A DNA stretch of 64,000 nt from Kiloniellaceae bacterium (GTDB taxonomy: Bacteria; Pseudomonadota; Alphaproteobacteria; Kiloniellales; J153). The stretch lies in NCBI GenBank assembly GCA_021776115.1, contig JAJFGN010000035.1, positions 1 to 64,000 of the forward strand, in the 5' to 3' direction. The notes below the pieces were generated by a model. That model was not told the origin of the DNA. It made no database searches and was given only the letters and a program-made list of their open reading frames with translations. The position numbers were made by a program, and so were the translations under genes. Below are positions 53,977 to 64,000 of the stretch, piece by piece. Each line of letters starts with the position of its first letter. Position 1 is the stretch's first letter.

Positions 53977-55197
53977 ATGAAGATCCTTTATCTTTGCCAC
54001 CGCTTTCCCTTTCCGCCCGATTTCGGCAGCAAGGTACGCGCCTTTCATACAATCAAGCACCTTGGGCTTAGGCATGAGGTGACTGTGGCCGCACCGGTGC
54101 GCTCGTCCAAAGAAGCGCATGCCGGGGAAGGGCTCGAATCCCATTGCCACAAAGTCCTCACGGAGACCATTTCACCGGCGGCGGCGATATCCCGGATGGT
54201 GGCCGGAGCGCCGACGTCCCGGCCGGCCTCCATGGCCTATTTCGACTCGCCGGCGCTCAGACGGCGAATCCGGGAAGAAATCGCGCGCACCGACTTCGAT
54301 CTGATCTTCGTGCATTGCTCATCGGTCGCCCCCTATGTCGAAAATGTTGCCGGCGTGCCAATGATTCTTGATTTTGTGGACATGGATTCACAAAAGTGGC
54401 TGGACTATGCGCGGTTTCACAGTTTTCCGCGATCTTTGGTCTATCGGCTGGAAGGGTTGAAGCTTCAGCGGGCCGAAGCGAAGCTGGCGCGGAGTTTCGA
54501 TTTTTGTACCTGCGCCACGCAGGCAGAGGTCGATACTCTCGAGGGATTCAACACCGAAACACCCGTGGATTGGTTCGCAAATGGTGTGGACCTTGAATAT
54601 TTTTGCCCCGATGGGGCCCAGAACGATGCCTATGACCCCAATACCATCGCATTTGTCGGGCGAATGGATTATTTCCCCAACGTCCAGGCAATGGTCGATT
54701 TTTGCTCCGATGTCCTGCCGAAGATCCAAGCAGGTCATCCCGGCGTAAAGCTGACGATTATCGGTGCTGATCCGACCTCCGCAGTTCAGAATCTGGCCAA
54801 TATCCCTGGCGTCACGGTCACTGGGACGGTACCTGACGTGCGGCCCTACCTTCGCGGTGCCGCGGTTTCCGTTGCCCCGCTCAGCGTGGCTCGCGGAACT
54901 CAGAATAAGATTCTCGAAGCTCTCGCCTTGGGGGTGCCTGTCGTCAGCAGCCAGCTTGCTGGGAGGGGATTCGACGCGGTGCCGGGCGAGCATTTCCTGA
55001 GTGCCGCCACCGCTGAGGATTTCGCCGCGCAAACCTTACGCCTTCTGACCGACGCGGGTGAGCGCCGCCGTTTCGCCGAAGCGGGCCGTGCCCGCATGGA
55101 GAGTCATCACGGATGGGACGTCGCGATGCGGCGCCTGGACGCGATCGTCGATCGCGTTCTAGCGCGGCGCCGAGTGGGCGCGGCTAGGGTCGCATGA
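53977..55197 (+). CDS. Exosortase A/EpsH-associated glycosyltransferase (TIGR03087-like)
   Basis: A 406-residue GT-B enzyme. Its opening ILYLCHRFPFPPDFGSKVRAFHTIKHL, VDMDSQKWLDYA, the central IAFVGRMDYFPNVQAMVDFCSDVLP and SVARGTQNKILEALALGVPVVSS match the TIGR03087 group, defined as sugar transferases that accompany exosortase type A/EpsH systems. Role in assembly of an exopolysaccharide is known for the group by association only. The ATG at 53977 lacks a strong ribosome-binding site. It lies between GT4 and GT2 genes on the same strand. Confidence 0.87.
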   Translation: MKILYLCHRFPFPPDFGSKVRAFHTIKHLGLRHEVTVAAPVRSSKEAHAGEGLESHCHKVLTETISPAAAISRMVAGAPTSRPASMAYFDSPALRRRIREEIARTDFDLIFVHCSSVAPYVENVAGVPMILDFVDMDSQKWLDYARFHSFPRSLVYRLEGLKLQRAEAKLARSFDFCTCATQAEVDTLEGFNTETPVDWFANGVDLEYFCPDGAQNDAYDPNTIAFVGRMDYFPNVQAMVDFCSDVLPKIQAGHPGVKLTIIGADPTSAVQNLANIPGVTVTGTVPDVRPYLRGAAVSVAPLSVARGTQNKILEALALGVPVVSSQLAGRGFDAVPGEHFLSAATAEDFAAQTLRLLTDAGERRRFAEAGRARMESHHGWDVAMRRLDAIVDRVLARRRVGAARVA

Positions 55198-57861: not shown

Positions 57862-58100
57862 CTGCCTTGGAGGCCGAGCTATTGAAGCACAGGTTCAAAA
57901 CCCGTGGACAGGTTATGAACCAAATGGCTAATCCCGCTAAGCTGGCGCCTCCATACCTCACAAAGGCTCGCCGGAATATTTTTTTGACTTTACCTATTGT
58001 ATCTCTAATGCATGCCCAAGAAAATGCGACTGGCCCGGCAACTAATTCGGGACCAGTATTGAGGGTGTTTTCAGGCGCCCAAAGAATCGCCCGAGATCGC

Positions 58101-58676
58101 ATGTCCGCGTGGAAGCCGGCTGTCCAGATAGCGATGAGATGTTTTCGGCCCATTACCCACTTGCTTGCAATTCTGATCTTCACCACCGTTTGGGCGGCGG
58201 CTGCCAGCGCTCAAGTAAAGCGATCCGAGGTTGTGTATCACGAACAATCGAAAAGTTGGTATCAGTTCGTTCAGCACGATGTTACGGATTCGAAGAGTTG
58301 GGATGATGCAAACAAGCTAGCCAGGGGTTTAGCGCACAATGGCATACAGGGCCGGCTGGCCGTGGTCGACGACGCCGAAACCAACGAGTTCCTACGCAAG
58401 ACCTTCAAGCCCGATGTCGACACCTGGATAGGGCTCAGGTATTTTTGTAAATTCCACAAGGTCGTTTGGGTTACGGGCGAAATCCTGGACCGGCAAGGAT
58501 ATCAGCGCTGGGCGGGCCAGTGGTATCGAAGGTCGGAAATAACCTGCGAAAATCAGGCAATGGACTATATGCCTGTGTATTTTACACCTGTCAGCCAAGG
58601 CTTTCGCTGGCAAGCCTCGGGTTTGCTTAAGAAATTCTACGCCTATATCGTGGAGTTTCCGGGCGCGCGAGAGTAA
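58101..58676 (+). CDS. Secreted C-type-lectin-like protein
   Basis: A 191-residue protein with a signal peptide (hydrophobic core THLLAILIFTTVWAAAASAQ). The mature 155 residues look like a C-type lectin-like domain: YHEQSKSWYQFVQHDVTDSKSWDDANKLARGL, GRLAVVDDAETNEFLRKTF, DTWIGLRYF, and the paired WVTGE and WAGQWY. The fold's second Cys pair is partly present (RYFCKF, ITCENQAM). It has no PEP-CTERM tail. The role is probably binding a glycan. Starts at 58101 or 58134 both fit; the frame open from 57867 has no signal-like features. The gap 57862-58100 shows nothing else. Confidence 0.7.
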   Translation: MSAWKPAVQIAMRCFRPITHLLAILIFTTVWAAAASAQVKRSEVVYHEQSKSWYQFVQHDVTDSKSWDDANKLARGLAHNGIQGRLAVVDDAETNEFLRKTFKPDVDTWIGLRYFCKFHKVVWVTGEILDRQGYQRWAGQWYRRSEITCENQAMDYMPVYFTPVSQGFRWQASGLLKKFYAYIVEFPGARE

Positions 58677-58742: not shown

Positions 58743-60089
58743 ATGCGCGACATCGTAATTTTCGCTTCGATACTCGGCCTGATTCCCGTCGTGCTAATAC
58801 GACCCTATGTCGGAATTCTTCTTTGGGCCTGGATTTCCTATATGAACCCCCACCGGCTTGGCTGGGGATTTACCTTCGACTACCCCTTCGCCATGGTAGT
58901 CGGGGTCGCGACGATATTGGCTTGGGTGATCTCGCGAGAACGTAAAATACCCCCCAGCGATGCGGTAACCGTTCTGATCATCGTTTTGGCGATCTGGGTG
59001 TCGATCACGACCCTATTCGCGGAGGTTCCCGATGAAGCCTTTACGTTCTGGGGCCGGACGATGAAGCTTCTGGTCATGACGGTGGTCGCGATCCTTGTCG
59101 TCAACACACGCGAACGGATCCATGCGCTAATTTGGATTATCGTCATATCGGTCGGTTATTTTGGCGTCAAAGGCGGATTGTTTAGTTTGGTTACCGGCTC
59201 AAAGTATCTGGTCTTGGGGCCGCCCGACAGCTACCTCGAAGATAACAATTCGTTGTCTCTCGCCCTTATCATGATTGTGCCTCTAATACGCTACCTTCAG
59301 CTTCATTCTTCGGTCGTTTGGGTGCGGCTTGGCCTTTATGTAGCCTTGCTTTTGTGCCTGGTCGCCATTGTCGGATCTTACTCACGGGGCGCGCTTCTGG
59401 GCGCCGCGGCTATGCTAGTGGTCATGGTTGTCAAATCGCGCAGGCGCGGACTGATTATCGGCGCCGGTTTGATCATCGCGACCTTTGCCCTTGCGTTTAC
59501 GCCTGAAGGGTGGCTCGCGCGGATGCAGACGATCGGTACGTACGAGGAGGATGAATCGGCCCAAGGGCGTTTCGATGCCTGGAAATTCGCCTACCGACTT
59601 TCGCTTGACCGGCCGATTGTCGGCGGTGGGTTCCGGGTCGAAAACGCCGACGATCTATTCTTGAAATATGTACCGGACGCCCCGCGAGCTCGTTCCTTCC
59701 ACAGCATTATTTTTGAAATGCTTGGTGAACACGGCTGGGTCGGCCTCTCGATATCCATTGCGCTCCTATTCGCGGGTGTGATCCTAGCGCGCTCGGTCGA
59801 GCGCCGGAGTAGAGGGCGGCCCGATCTCCTTTGGGCCAGGGACCTAGCGGCAATGTGCCAAGTGGCCATGGCCGGTTACTTTGTAACGGGCTTGTTTCAG
59901 GACCACGCCTTCTTCGATCTCTACTACCACGTCCTAGCCGTGATCGCCGTAATCTATGGGATAGTAAAAAAGGAAACTGCGGAATTGGAAGCGCCACATC
60001 AAGTAACGCTGGGAACCAGGGCCGAGCAAATCGGCGTGAGTGTTCCTGGCGGCATGAAAATTGGCACCGATCTGCGCAGCATCCGTTAA
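58743..60089 (+). CDS. O-antigen-ligase-like protein, exosortase A-associated (TIGR03097-like)
   Basis: A 448-residue protein with about 10-12 membrane segments, of the Wzy/WaaL superfamily. The opening IPVVLIRPYVGILLWAWISYMNPHRLGWG, the central SYLEDNNSLSLALIMIVPLIRY and the periplasmic loop up to APRARSFHSIIFEMLGEHGWVGL with its conserved His match the TIGR03097 'putative O-glycosylation ligase, exosortase A system-associated' group. In those systems it is thought to transfer a polysaccharide to proteins, though this is not proven. The C-terminal 45 residues are cytosolic. A 283-bp AT-rich gap follows in which I see no gene. Confidence 0.87.
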   Translation: MRDIVIFASILGLIPVVLIRPYVGILLWAWISYMNPHRLGWGFTFDYPFAMVVGVATILAWVISRERKIPPSDAVTVLIIVLAIWVSITTLFAEVPDEAFTFWGRTMKLLVMTVVAILVVNTRERIHALIWIIVISVGYFGVKGGLFSLVTGSKYLVLGPPDSYLEDNNSLSLALIMIVPLIRYLQLHSSVVWVRLGLYVALLLCLVAIVGSYSRGALLGAAAMLVVMVVKSRRRGLIIGAGLIIATFALAFTPEGWLARMQTIGTYEEDESAQGRFDAWKFAYRLSLDRPIVGGGFRVENADDLFLKYVPDAPRARSFHSIIFEMLGEHGWVGLSISIALLFAGVILARSVERRSRGRPDLLWARDLAAMCQVAMAGYFVTGLFQDHAFFDLYYHVLAVIAVIYGIVKKETAELEAPHQVTLGTRAEQIGVSVPGGMKIGTDLRSIR

Positions 60090-60372
60090 TTGCATTGACG
60101 CTTGGCATAAGCGCTATTGCTCACAATACTTCGACTGTGCCGACCATACCAAAAGTCGCGTGCCGAAGTGCCATCCACATCCAATTTGGCCCTAACGCCG
60201 AGGTTGCAACCGAAATATCAAGGAATAAAGTATTGCGTTGTCGGAATTACCATAATTTACATCGCTAATTTTTGGCAATAACTTGGATACATACTGGTAT
60301 GCCTTCTATACTATCATTATTGGTAACTAGGCAGGCCATTTGGGGAAATCCGGTTTGGTGGTAGAGCCTCAA

Positions 60373-61284
60373 ATGGACAAGTGGTGCATCGCAGTCTTTT
60401 GCCGCAATGAGGCACAGACGATCGAAACTTGTCTCACTAAGGTGCGGGAGGCATGTGGCGAGCGCAACTTCGAAGTATTTGTTTTTATCAACGGCTCATC
60501 CGATGCGACTACCCGAATTGTCCAGAAGATGCTCACGGAGAACGGGGATTGGCTTAGAGCATATGAAATCCCATTTCCTGACAAATCAAACGCTTGGAAC
60601 CAATACATTCATGCTATTCGGCCGAACGGCGGAATATATTTTTTCGTCGACGCGTACGCAACGGTTTCTACAGAGTCCTTCGAGAGGCTGTTTCGTGCGC
60701 TAAATAAGAACCCGTCTGCTAACGCCGCAACCGGGGTGCCAACCTCGGGCCGAACTGTGCGGCATCTAATCGATACGATGAAACGCGAAGGCGGTCTTCA
60801 TGGTTCGCTACATGCGCTGTCAGCGGGCTTTGTAGAACGCATCCGAGCGCGAGAGATAAGGCTTCCCGTCCGTTTATACCGGAATGATGGATTAATTGGC
60901 GCTATGGCGATGCACGATTTGGCGCCGATGGAAGTGCCATGGTCTCCTTCAAAGATATTGGTCGTTGAGGAGGCGACCTGGGATCACAGGCGTCTGTCGC
61001 CGTGGCGTTGGGACGACGTTCGGCGTCAGTTAAACCGAATGGTTCAACAGGCACGCGGTCGATACGAGAACCAGGCAATCAAAGAGATCGTTTATTCGAA
61101 AGGCTTTGAAGGTATTCCAGATGTTGCCGACCAAATGATACTTGACCACATTAGTCGTTCAGCCTCGGTTTCACCCGGCCTCTTTTTCAAAGACCCGTTC
61201 GCATTTGTCGCTCTGCGGCGGGTTTGCAATGCTATACCGCCGACCCTAGATCAGCTCACACCACGGCGCTTGTATCCTCTTTGA
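60373..61284 (+). CDS. GT2-like glycosyltransferase with 3' end inside an IS remnant
   Basis: A 303-residue GT-A-type enzyme: CIAVFCRNEAQTIETCL, FEVFVFINGSSDATTRIVQKM, and YFFVDAYATVSTESFERLF, where the usual DxD is replaced by FVDAYA. The ATG at 60373 gives a normal N-terminal strand; an upstream TTG at 60340 is in frame. The final residues DQLTPRRLYPL are coded by DNA that belongs, on the other strand, to a decayed IS5-type transposase (61256 onward). The native C-terminus has therefore probably been replaced. AT content is high compared with the housekeeping genes. Activity is uncertain. Confidence 0.75.
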   Translation: MDKWCIAVFCRNEAQTIETCLTKVREACGERNFEVFVFINGSSDATTRIVQKMLTENGDWLRAYEIPFPDKSNAWNQYIHAIRPNGGIYFFVDAYATVSTESFERLFRALNKNPSANAATGVPTSGRTVRHLIDTMKREGGLHGSLHALSAGFVERIRAREIRLPVRLYRNDGLIGAMAMHDLAPMEVPWSPSKILVVEEATWDHRRLSPWRWDDVRRQLNRMVQQARGRYENQAIKEIVYSKGFEGIPDVADQMILDHISRSASVSPGLFFKDPFAFVALRRVCNAIPPTLDQLTPRRLYPL

Positions 61285-61496
61285 GAATGAAGCTGAAGTT
61301 GTAGCAGGCGATGGCGAGGATGGCGTGGCCGACGCCGCTATCTTGACCCTTGGGTAGCTGTGGCCGCGATAGCCCCCGGATTGGGTTAGGGCCGGGCTCC
61401 ATGCCGACCCGCTTCTCACACTCCTGGCCACAATGGGGGACTGAGGTGTGATTGTCATACTGATCGCCGTGTCGGGCCCTGGCGTCCAGCAGGACT
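61256..61496 (-). pseudogene. Decayed IS5-type transposase fragment
   Basis: On the minus strand the frame LLDARARHGDQYDNHTS (about 61444-61496) matches the transposase segment before the second catalytic Asp. The shifted frame then reads GGYRGHSYPRVKIA (about 61341-61382), which resembles the D-R-G-Y-R-G-H motif. After another shift, GVGHAILAIACYNFSFILK (about 61281-61335) matches the transposase C-terminus, with the stop at 61256. About 50 residues between the last two blocks are missing. Two frameshifts plus the deletion make it inactive. The remaining gap to 61604 shows no terminal repeats that I can identify. Confidence 0.7.
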
Positions 61497-61604
61497 CAGC
61501 TAACAAACGATTTCCGTTGGCGCCTTCCCAGTTCTTGACGGACGGTCTGGGAACAGCTGTCTAATCTCTCGCGACCGGTATTCTACTTCCTTTCAACCTT
61601 GCCC

Positions 61605-61641
61605 GGGATGGAGGCCACGAAAAATCGCAAGTCTCCATCCC
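61605..61641. repeat. Inverted repeat downstream of the large secreted-protein gene
   Basis: GGGATGGAG (61605-61613) and CTCCATCCC (61633-61641) form a 9-10 bp stem with a 19-nt loop, 34 bp after the leftward gene's stop. It may be its terminator, but there is no T-run on the minus strand. It may also be a terminal end of the IS remnant. Confidence 0.4.
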
Positions 61642-61674
61642 GTTTGAAGGCGGGGCAGTCGTACCCTACGACGG

Positions 61675-64000
61675 TTAGGGGATCACAGTCGGTAGTCCGC
61701 CATTCTGGAAGATCATGTAGACGTATTGCAATTCACCCTTGTTGTTGGCCAAGTACAGGTTCCCAGAAGAGGAGTCGAATTGCGTATCGATAAAGTGGCC
61801 AACCTCATTGTCACCGGCAGTGCGCTGAGTGGCCGACCCGTAAACCCCCTTAGTGCCGCGATTGAAGAAGAACTTGGCACGGTCCAGAAGCTGCGTGTCA
61901 CCGGTGAACTTGTAGCCCCACACGAGGGTATTGACCAGTGACGTGGGATACACCGGATCCCAGGAAGTACCGCCGGAGTAGTTGTGCCAAGGCTGGCCAT
62001 CCACGATGCCGAAGATGCTCCCGGTGTAATTGACCGTCGGATCCATTCCGTATTGATCGACAAATTTCGCCATGGCGGTCATGCGAGCTCTGATATCCGC
62101 CCGCCCCGTGACCCGATAAGCCTGCGCGAAGGCTTCGGTGAGTATACCGAGTTGGAAAGTTAAAATGACTCGGTCACCGGAGCTATATGATCCGGCGCCT
62201 AGAGCCTGGTCGGTCTGCCAATCACCCACGAAATACATACCGCGCGCGTCCCAATCCGGCGATGCCATCCATAGTTCGATGAGCTTGTCGCGAAGTGCGA
62301 TCCACCGTGGCTTTTGTGTGGCTTCCGCCACATAGGTCGCCAGGATCAGGTGGCGCGCACCACCACGGAAGCCGTAATACGCCATCTCCCTGCCTGGAAC
62401 GTAGATCGAATCGTTGTATATACCCTCGACCACCGCTGCCAAATTTTCCGCTTCGTCAAGAGCCGCTGTGTCGCCAGTGTACCCGGACCAGTTTACAAGG
62501 CCCCATCCGTACATGTGATCGTTTCCGAAGTTGTCGCGGTCAAAACAGTAGTCCGTATAGCCGCCGTCACATCCTAGGCGGTAGTCGTTCTTGAAATAGT
62601 TCGCCCAGAAAGTCGCGCGATCCAGATAGCCCTGTTCTCCCGTCCGCAGGTACATATGCAGATAGGTCCATAAATCGTCACCCTCGGTTTCGTAATGAAT
62701 ATCAGGTGTCAAGCCAAAGCCTGCATCGCCCGAGAAATTGGGCTCCTGGCTTGCAGACCAGGTCCAGCCCCAACTAGCGTAGGTATCCTTTTCATCCTGC
62801 AGAGTCGGCATCGGGAAACCGCCGAGACTTCCGCCGGGCAAGGGTGGCTGACTCGGGGCCGATACCGTCACGGTAGCGTTCGCGGAAGCGGTTCCGCCAG
62901 CCCCTGCGCATGCCAGCGAGTAGGTCGTTGTCTGCGATGGCGACACGGTTACCGAGCCATTTATCGCCTTAGCTCCCGTCCAGCCGCCGGAGGCGGTGCA
63001 TGCCGTTGCGTTTGTGGACGACCACGTGAGGACGGTCGATTGACCGGAAGTAATAGTACTCTGCGCCGAAGAAAGGGTCGTGGTTGGCGCCGGCGTCGAG
63101 CCACCTCCTGAGCCACCTCCAGCGGCGTGCTTGTACAACGTCACACGACAATTGCTGTTGCCATTGCACGTCGCGAACAGGACCACGCCGTAAGTGCCGA
63201 CCGGCGTTGCAGCAACTCCGTGAATAGGATTGTCGGCCCACACTGTCGTGAAAATCGGCGCGCTGATGTTCTTGTTGGTCCAGCGATCCGCGACCAGGTC
63301 GTAGGTCCAGAACTGTCCGTTGCGAAAGAACACCAGGTATTCGCCGGTGACTGGGTCGACCGTCAGCATGGAAGAATTGATTCCCACATCGTACGGCGCG
63401 GGAGCCAGTGTTTTGACGTTGCCGCTGGCATCCATGCTGTACAGGGCCTTGCTGCCGTTACCACCGCCGAAGACCATGACCTTATGAATCGGGTTGTATT
63501 CGGCCACGTTGTGGTACGGACCCATGGGAAGTCCCCCTGCGATCCGCTGCCAGTTGTTTGTGGAGCGATTCCAGAATGCAACGGCGCCAGTAGTCCCAGT
63601 GTCCGAGCCGGCCCAGAACAGGCCGCCCATTTCTGGGAAGTATTCCAGACCGCCGAGGTTGCCCGGATCCCCATGTACGGAGAACGGGATTGCGGGCAGT
63701 GCACTCCATTGAGATCCGTTCCAGCGACGAATTGTGGCCGACTCCCATGACTTACTGAAGAAATCGCCGGTAGCTGGATCGACCGCCATGTGGTCGTAGC
63801 CGTGGTTGGTCGCCGAGGGCGCCCAGGACGGGGTGCCATTGTCGACCCAAGTGTTATTCGACTCGTTGTATGTAATGAACCTCGTTGCATCCAGGTGATC
63901 GCCGCCGACGTACTCTAGTTGTCGGCGAATCGGGTTCCAGTTCAAATCGTCGGTGAACCCGAAAATTATACCGCTGGCACCGGAAGCCGCTAGGGCTGGG
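61675..64000 (-). CDS. Large secreted-type protein: beta-propeller, Ig-like and alpha/alpha-barrel domains (5' end outside)
   Basis: An open frame of at least 774 residues with no stop up to the right edge; the start lies beyond it. Numbered from the TTG at 63945, residues 1-275 have propeller-like blades (RWNGSQWSALPAIPFS, AFWNRSTNNWQRIAGGLP, FWTYDLVADRWTNKNIS). After a Gly/Ser linker, residues 286-362 form an Ig-like module (SGQSTVLTWSSTNATACTAS, TYSLACAGAGGTAS). Residues 375-756 form a helical repeat fold with YLHMYLRTGEQGYLDRA, HLILATYVAEATQKPRW and WGYKFTGDTQLLDRAKFFFN, like six-hairpin glycosidases or polysaccharide lyases. No PEP-CTERM tail is present. It probably binds and acts on a polysaccharide outside the cell; the substrate is unknown. 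Confidence 0.75.
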   Translation of the reverse strand, partial: PALAASGASGIIFGFTDDLNWNPIRRQLEYVGGDHLDATRFITYNESNNTWVDNGTPSWAPSATNHGYDHMAVDPATGDFFSKSWESATIRRWNGSQWSALPAIPFSVHGDPGNLGGLEYFPEMGGLFWAGSDTGTTGAVAFWNRSTNNWQRIAGGLPMGPYHNVAEYNPIHKVMVFGGGNGSKALYSMDASGNVKTLAPAPYDVGINSSMLTVDPVTGEYLVFFRNGQFWTYDLVADRWTNKNISAPIFTTVWADNPIHGVAATPVGTYGVVLFATCNGNSNCRVTLYKHAAGGGSGGGSTPAPTTTLSSAQSTITSGQSTVLTWSSTNATACTASGGWTGAKAINGSVTVSPSQTTTYSLACAGAGGTASANATVTVSAPSQPPLPGGSLGGFPMPTLQDEKDTYASWGWTWSASQEPNFSGDAGFGLTPDIHYETEGDDLWTYLHMYLRTGEQGYLDRATFWANYFKNDYRLGCDGGYTDYCFDRDNFGNDHMYGWGLVNWSGYTGDTAALDEAENLAAVVEGIYNDSIYVPGREMAYYGFRGGARHLILATYVAEATQKPRWIALRDKLIELWMASPDWDARGMYFVGDWQTDQALGAGSYSSGDRVILTFQLGILTEAFAQAYRVTGRADIRARMTAMAKFVDQYGMDPTVNYTGSIFGIVDGQPWHNYSGGTSWDPVYPTSLVNTLVWGYKFTGDTQLLDRAKFFFNRGTKGVYGSATQRTAGDNEVGHFIDTQFDSSSGNLYLANNKGELQYVYMIFQNGGLPTVIP

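Follow-up and report, generated by a model that had tools for sequence, protein, structure and literature searches.

The locus considered here raises the question of whether a marine bacterium encodes, beside the genes for an exopolysaccharide (EPS), a secreted protein that acts on the resulting polymer. The window (i.e., the whole 64,000-nucleotide stretch of DNA that was analysed) corresponds to positions 1-64000 of contig C29 from the Kiloniellaceae bin G000 (4.3 Mb, 85 contigs). A single uninterrupted frame occupies positions 61675-64000 of its minus strand and encodes the last 774 residues of an open frame that extends further. Since the contig extends 981 bases beyond the window, to 64981, with the frame open throughout, the TTG given as the start codon in the preliminary description is wrong; up to the contig end the frame encodes 1101 residues, with the N-terminus still missing. 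These upstream bases contribute new modules (a PKD-like tail, a Laminin-G-type domain and a Gly/Ser linker), but the contig stops before the N-terminus is reached. Similarly, the protein had been described as a chain of three parts, and all three are present, but the chain begins well before them, and the order of its modules is PKD-like tail, Laminin_G_3, Gly/Ser linker, propeller, Ig-like module and helical domain.

Laminin_G_3 (LamG) was assigned by Pfam to residues 93-244 with an E-value of 1.1e-28. Residues 1-47 have no Pfam match of their own and are called a PKD-like tail owing to their alignment with the PKD regions of congeners. The Gly/Ser-rich linker lies N-terminal to the propeller; a natural linker of the (Gly4Ser) type, at about 64080-64200 of C29 (beyond the window), matches engineered antibody linkers in the PDB. 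No NCBIfam model of a PEP-CTERM sorting signal was matched by the 1101-residue chain up to an E-value of 1, and no such signal was seen at the C-terminus.

The region at 63118-64000 (minus strand; about residues 300-621, the first part lying beyond the window) had been described as a kelch-like propeller, and analysis by AlphaFold2 and Foldseek bears out the propeller. The AlphaFold2 model, built from 6 sequences, is all-beta, with a pTM of 0.63 and a mean pLDDT of 58. Comparison of this model with the PDB by Foldseek gave 617 matches at an E-value up to 0.001. Among the best 50 of these 617, almost all are, judged by title and known fold, propellers or propeller-chain complexes, kelch domains (E about 1e-8) being among the best. 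Pfam yielded sub-threshold matches only. A propeller is thus well supported by the predicted structure, while its assignment to the kelch kind is less certain. The adjoining bacterial Ig-like module (62848-63087, minus strand; about residues 632-711) is recognised from its sequence pattern and because it aligns with the corresponding stretch of a congener's protein (G003); Pfam gave no match up to an E-value of 10.

The adjacent cluster is a polysaccharide locus of the exosortase-A (XrtA) type, as judged from NCBIfam models matched within the window. These include a putative O-glycosylation ligase associated with the exosortase A system (58743-60089, plus strand; TIGR03097, 481 bits against a cut-off of 188) and a PEP-CTERM/XrtA system glycosyltransferase (53977-55197, plus strand; TIGR03087, 450 bits against a cut-off of 317). 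Further, a C-type-lectin-like protein (57867-58676, plus strand; PF00059, 30.5 bits, cut-off 22.6) is encoded, relatives of which occur with the propeller protein at 7 of the 15 places compared (the window, L028-L030 and L052-L062). A glycosyltransferase-2-like protein with only a weak NCBIfam match (60340-61284, plus strand) is the convergent neighbour of the gene, which is transcribed in the direction opposite to the cluster. The stretch between the two (61285-61674) holds a minus-strand fragment that, by eye, resembles the end of a transposase and is possibly the trace of a mobile element. Across the 15 places, four EPS markers were considered, namely an O-antigen-ligase-like protein, an exosortase, the amidotransferase of the G003 locus and the ATPase of the L053 locus. 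At least one of them is present at 12 places (none at L056, L061 and L062), in agreement with the polysaccharide cluster recognised earlier. An exosortase is found beside the relatives in L028, L030, L057 and L059; the window's bin, itself incomplete, gave no PF09721 match, and the exosortase of this genome may lie on a missing piece or may have been lost.

The start of the frame recurs in the three other genomes of the genus that were compared (63-72% identity over 47-66 residues), i.e., the Kiloniellaceae MAGs OFTM267, OFTM138 and OFTM296 (G001, G002 and G003, respectively). According to PMC10732223, the label OFTM denotes MAGs from Oslofjord subsea tunnel biofilms, assembled with Megahit; the window's bin may come from there as well. 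The complete congener proteins have 1462, 2051 and 1299 residues, and by inspection each of their N-termini has a basic segment followed by a hydrophobic stretch and an AxA-like site, a pattern read as a Sec signal peptide. The proposed secretion therefore has an export-signal-like start in three of three congeners in its favour, but the N-terminus of the window's own protein lies beyond the contig end, and its export is predicted by way of these congeners. After the signal-like start, the congener proteins carry a propeller (weak kelch matches only in Pfam), two to three PKD domains, LamG and then a C-terminal end that differs from that of the window's protein. A profile of their N-terminal propeller found matches in 14 of the 190 relatives searched and none in the window's bin, which indicates that the bin lacks the N-terminal piece.

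The PKD and LamG regions of these three proteins belong to the same family as those of the window's protein, and the G003 protein also shares the second propeller and the Ig-like module. Alignment with the latter protein extends over 820 columns with 39% identity, up to the boundary of the helical domain; the common order is PKD tail, LamG, propeller and Ig-like module, followed by a beta-helix-like end in G003 and by the helical domain in the window. The ends of the G001-G003 proteins are beta-helix-like (in G001 by eye only, in G002 and G003 with Pfam scores that stay below the cut-off), whereas that of the window's protein is helical. Proteins of the same order that combine a propeller with a beta-helix or chondroitinase-B-like part (PF13229, PF14592; L052-L055 and L057-L059) likewise have a propeller related to the window's and share the EPS-locus setting, but are without LamG in Pfam scans and end in a different C-terminal fold. 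In L057 (8237-14107) and L058 (562-5877), the relative with propeller and beta-helix has cadherin-like/Big_9 domains and RTX repeats in addition, a sign that these species may use a different export route.

The ends of 15 family proteins were compared (C29, C75, L028-L030, L052-L057, two in L058, L059 and L060), leaving out L061 (weak match to the propeller profile, E 6e-6) and L062 (cut by the contig). Pfam scores for Beta_helix and/or Chondroitinase B attain the cut-off in eight of them (C75, L052, L053, L054, L055, L057, L059 and the first of the two in L058); for L053 and L057 this holds only in a scan restricted to the C-terminal part. Three score below it: the L029 protein with 19.2 bits for Chondroitinase B, and the L030 protein and the second L058 protein with 17.1 and 20.2 bits, respectively, for Beta_helix. 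L028 and L056 match neither model and appear by eye beta-helix-like and jelly-roll-like, respectively, while the protein of L060 is short and consists of about the propeller alone. A helical domain at the end is present in only one of the 15, that of the window (C29), and this pattern suggests that the C-terminal end module has been exchanged in the window's lineage.

The end module of the window's protein (61678-62811, minus strand; residues 724-1101) had been described as a helical-repeat domain rich in W, Y and D. The composition is borne out (D 8.5%, Y 7.4%, W 3.7%), and the repeats exceed chance in part, in hairpins 1 and 5 only. In a leave-one-out test with 500 shuffles per repeat, the score was reached by none of the shuffles for repeat 1 (62587-62682; domain residues 44-75) and by one for repeat 5 (61849-61944; residues 290-321), both being significant. 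Repeats 2 (62422-62517; residues 99-130; 110/500 shuffles) and 4 (62053-62148; residues 222-253; 55/500) are not significant alone, nor is the proposed repeat 3 (62263-62358; residues 152-183; 162/500), which the test placed elsewhere; all five are on the minus strand. A hairpin profile was built from four of the five repeats, leaving out repeat 3, as MAFFT misaligned the five. Against PDB sequences, the profile found 38 distinct matches at an E-value up to 10 (best 6.6e-4). By their known folds, 33 of these are (alpha/alpha)-toroid carbohydrate enzymes (GH9, GH76, GH88, GH127, PL17, AGE-type epimerases and others), many of the 33 being variants of the same few enzymes. Two lie outside the toroid fold (tectonin and Dda helicase), and three are without certain fold placement (5no8, which is the best match, 7eo3 and 6fhj). 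Of two column-permuted controls, one matched 8 PDB sequences, of which seven are Hsp90 and one is Lom (best E 1.2), and the other matched none. Further, the domain alone matches the GH127 model PF07944 with 26.5 bits (E 4e-6), slightly over the cut-off of 24.9, while the whole chain stays under it. The carbohydrate-enzyme fold proposed earlier is supported by this match and by the profile search with its controls, and the domain is likely an (alpha/alpha) toroid, as in many carbohydrate enzymes. The grade is kept at likely because three of the five hairpins fail the repeat test and the single-sequence AlphaFold2 model is unusable (mean pLDDT 33). Neither outcome named in advance as speaking against the proposal, a C-terminal part with a fold outside the carbohydrate-active enzymes or a full N-terminus lacking an export signal, was encountered, with the fold judged from sequence profiles and the export signal from the congeners. 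GH127, GH9, GH76, GH88, PL17 and AGE-type epimerases share the pattern of hairpin repeats, but without a family-level match to the window's domain.

Searches for homologues of the helical domain returned none besides the own genome, either among 57 relatives or among 397 genomes of the phylum. Five weak matches (E 0.009-0.047) were obtained in 384 genomes of the class besides the own; these three samples overlap and are not additive. All five were rejected as chance, three having stop codons, the fourth lying in a depolymerase-like protein that is unrelated by eye and the fifth in a frame of non-coding look. Scans that detect close relatives only were made on GTDB contigs, where 10 stretches fit the pattern and none was confirmed as the helical domain, and on viral contigs, without a homologue. 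Plasmids and phages gave 2 and 8 records at an E-value up to 10 (best E 3 and 4), taken as chance, and PHROGs gave no match. The 78 genomes of another class were also without a match, an empty result that carries no weight there.

The preferred reading, considered about equally likely to be right or wrong, is that of a secreted carbohydrate-active enzyme with an exchanged catalytic module, which trims or modifies the host's own polymer. The protein would be a large secreted component of the Kiloniellaceae exopolysaccharide locus, in which the propeller, PKD and LamG parts would hold it on the extracellular polymer. The helical toroid domain would serve as the catalytic module (a hydrolase, lyase or epimerase), and may cut or modify the polymer of the neighbouring genes by analogy with AlgL, PslG and PelA. 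Exchange of the end module has perhaps accompanied a change in polymer chemistry. AlgL, PslG and PelA are coded in EPS clusters, and the window's gene likewise lies beside an EPS locus; unlike the window's protein, they are not known to carry propeller, PKD and LamG modules. PMC9894940 presents all three as enzymes whose substrate is the polymer of the cluster that encodes them, and PMC9075953 gives a precedent for enzymes of this sort. The own-polymer reading is weakened by the convergent orientation of the gene relative to the cluster, by the missing exosortase in its own bin and by PF07944 falling below the cut-off in the whole chain.

Two other functions have to be weighed, both of them unlikely and to the same extent. 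The protein might be a secreted enzyme that serves to feed on foreign polysaccharides (of algae or of other biofilm members), its place next to the EPS cluster reflecting chance or co-regulation. The fold clue is equally compatible with degradative enzymes, scavenging enzymes often carry LamG, PKD, beta-helix or chondroitinase-B-like ends, and the convergent orientation also fits; nevertheless, EPS markers at 12 of the 15 places across the order are not expected from a chance neighbourhood. Alternatively, the whole chain might be a non-catalytic matrix protein, either an adhesin or a polysaccharide binder with several modules, and the role of the helical domain would then be limited to binding. 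Most of the modules are indeed of binding or spacer types, two relatives have additional RTX and cadherin-like repeats, and no catalytic residue is nameable in the helical domain. Against this, the same slot is occupied by lyase-type beta-helices in 8 of the 15 family proteins compared, and the fold proposed here is mostly enzymatic.

The match to PF07944 brings up, as a further alternative, a GH127 beta-L-arabinofuranosidase, which is very improbable. Although the domain alone exceeds the cut-off, the model scores 19.8 bits in the whole-chain scan, below 24.9, and the match covers only part of the profile and is confined to the hairpin repeats. GH127 enzymes have a catalytic, zinc-binding cysteine pair; the only two cysteines here (domain residues 81 and 89) are non-adjacent and outside the matched stretch, and membership was rejected as the catalytic pair is absent. 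Furthermore, phmmer of the PDB found no GH127 sequence. A separate candidate was a PL5-like alginate lyase, for which an Asn-Asx-His plus Tyr motif is typical. A similar-looking motif is present; the candidate gained no support from Pfam (no alginate lyase match up to an E-value of 10) or from the PDB (no such match for the motif region).

The assembly itself deserves attention, as contigs C29 and C75 have an identical 141 bases at their right ends (in C75, the region is L007, G000:C75, 15915-17289). Beyond these common bases, C75 proceeds from the PKD-like tail directly to a beta-helix, as against LamG, propeller, Ig-like module and helical domain in C29. The largest default k of MEGAHIT is 141, so that the common end is probably a branch of the assembly graph, between two loci in one genome or between two strains. 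Two gene copies are not concluded from it, as such a branch would likewise leave 141 bases. The PKD-LamG order of C29 is the order common to the congeners, two of which have an extra segment between. That an assembly error fused an unrelated helical domain onto a secreted protein, for which the fragmented bin of 85 contigs and the occurrence of the C29 end sequence in C75 may speak, is the least credible alternative of all, given that one open frame crosses the joint and that third-position G+C is similar in the propeller (0.71), the Ig-like module (0.65) and the helical domain (0.66).

Elsewhere in the bin, C75 (L007, 3793-10662) encodes a BTLCP cysteine proteinase (PF06035) beside genes that appear by eye to be for an ABC transporter, an HlyD-like and a TolC-like protein, an arrangement that resembles a locus for LapG-type adhesin release and type I secretion. 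On C36 (L008, 7042-8475), a LamG-containing protein that is 44% identical to the LamG region of the window's protein lies in surroundings that resemble, by eye, a phage-like or gene-transfer-agent-like head cluster.

Overall, the finding is real and somewhat unusual, as it concerns a known kind of protein of which the exchanged end domain is an orphan so far. Literature searches on exosortase, beta-propeller and polysaccharide lyase in exopolysaccharide clusters gave no paper that, by title and the start of the abstract, describes the architecture, and PMC1569441 has no occurrence of lyase, glycosyl hydrolase, beta-helix, kelch, propeller or TIGR03097. At a wider level, it is tentatively proposed, as a possibility held with less confidence than the own-polymer function, that the EPS loci of the order carry a dedicated secreted propeller scaffold, the polysaccharide-active end of which is swapped between unrelated folds (beta-helix, (alpha/alpha) toroid and perhaps the jelly-roll of L056) in step with polymer chemistry. 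In the same proposal, the helical domain of the window would found a new carbohydrate-enzyme family, and two scaffold copies that differ in their ends (C29 and C75) would be present in the genome. Exosortase and glycosyltransferase genes are what this type of EPS locus is chiefly known for. If the present reading is right, the locus would also code for a secreted, polymer-active protein, the variable end of which may be informative about the chemistry of a biofilm polysaccharide that is so far uncharacterised, and module exchange would provide a testable link from gene content to polymer. For its part, the helical domain is an orphan that is probably a carbohydrate enzyme and is a candidate for assay.
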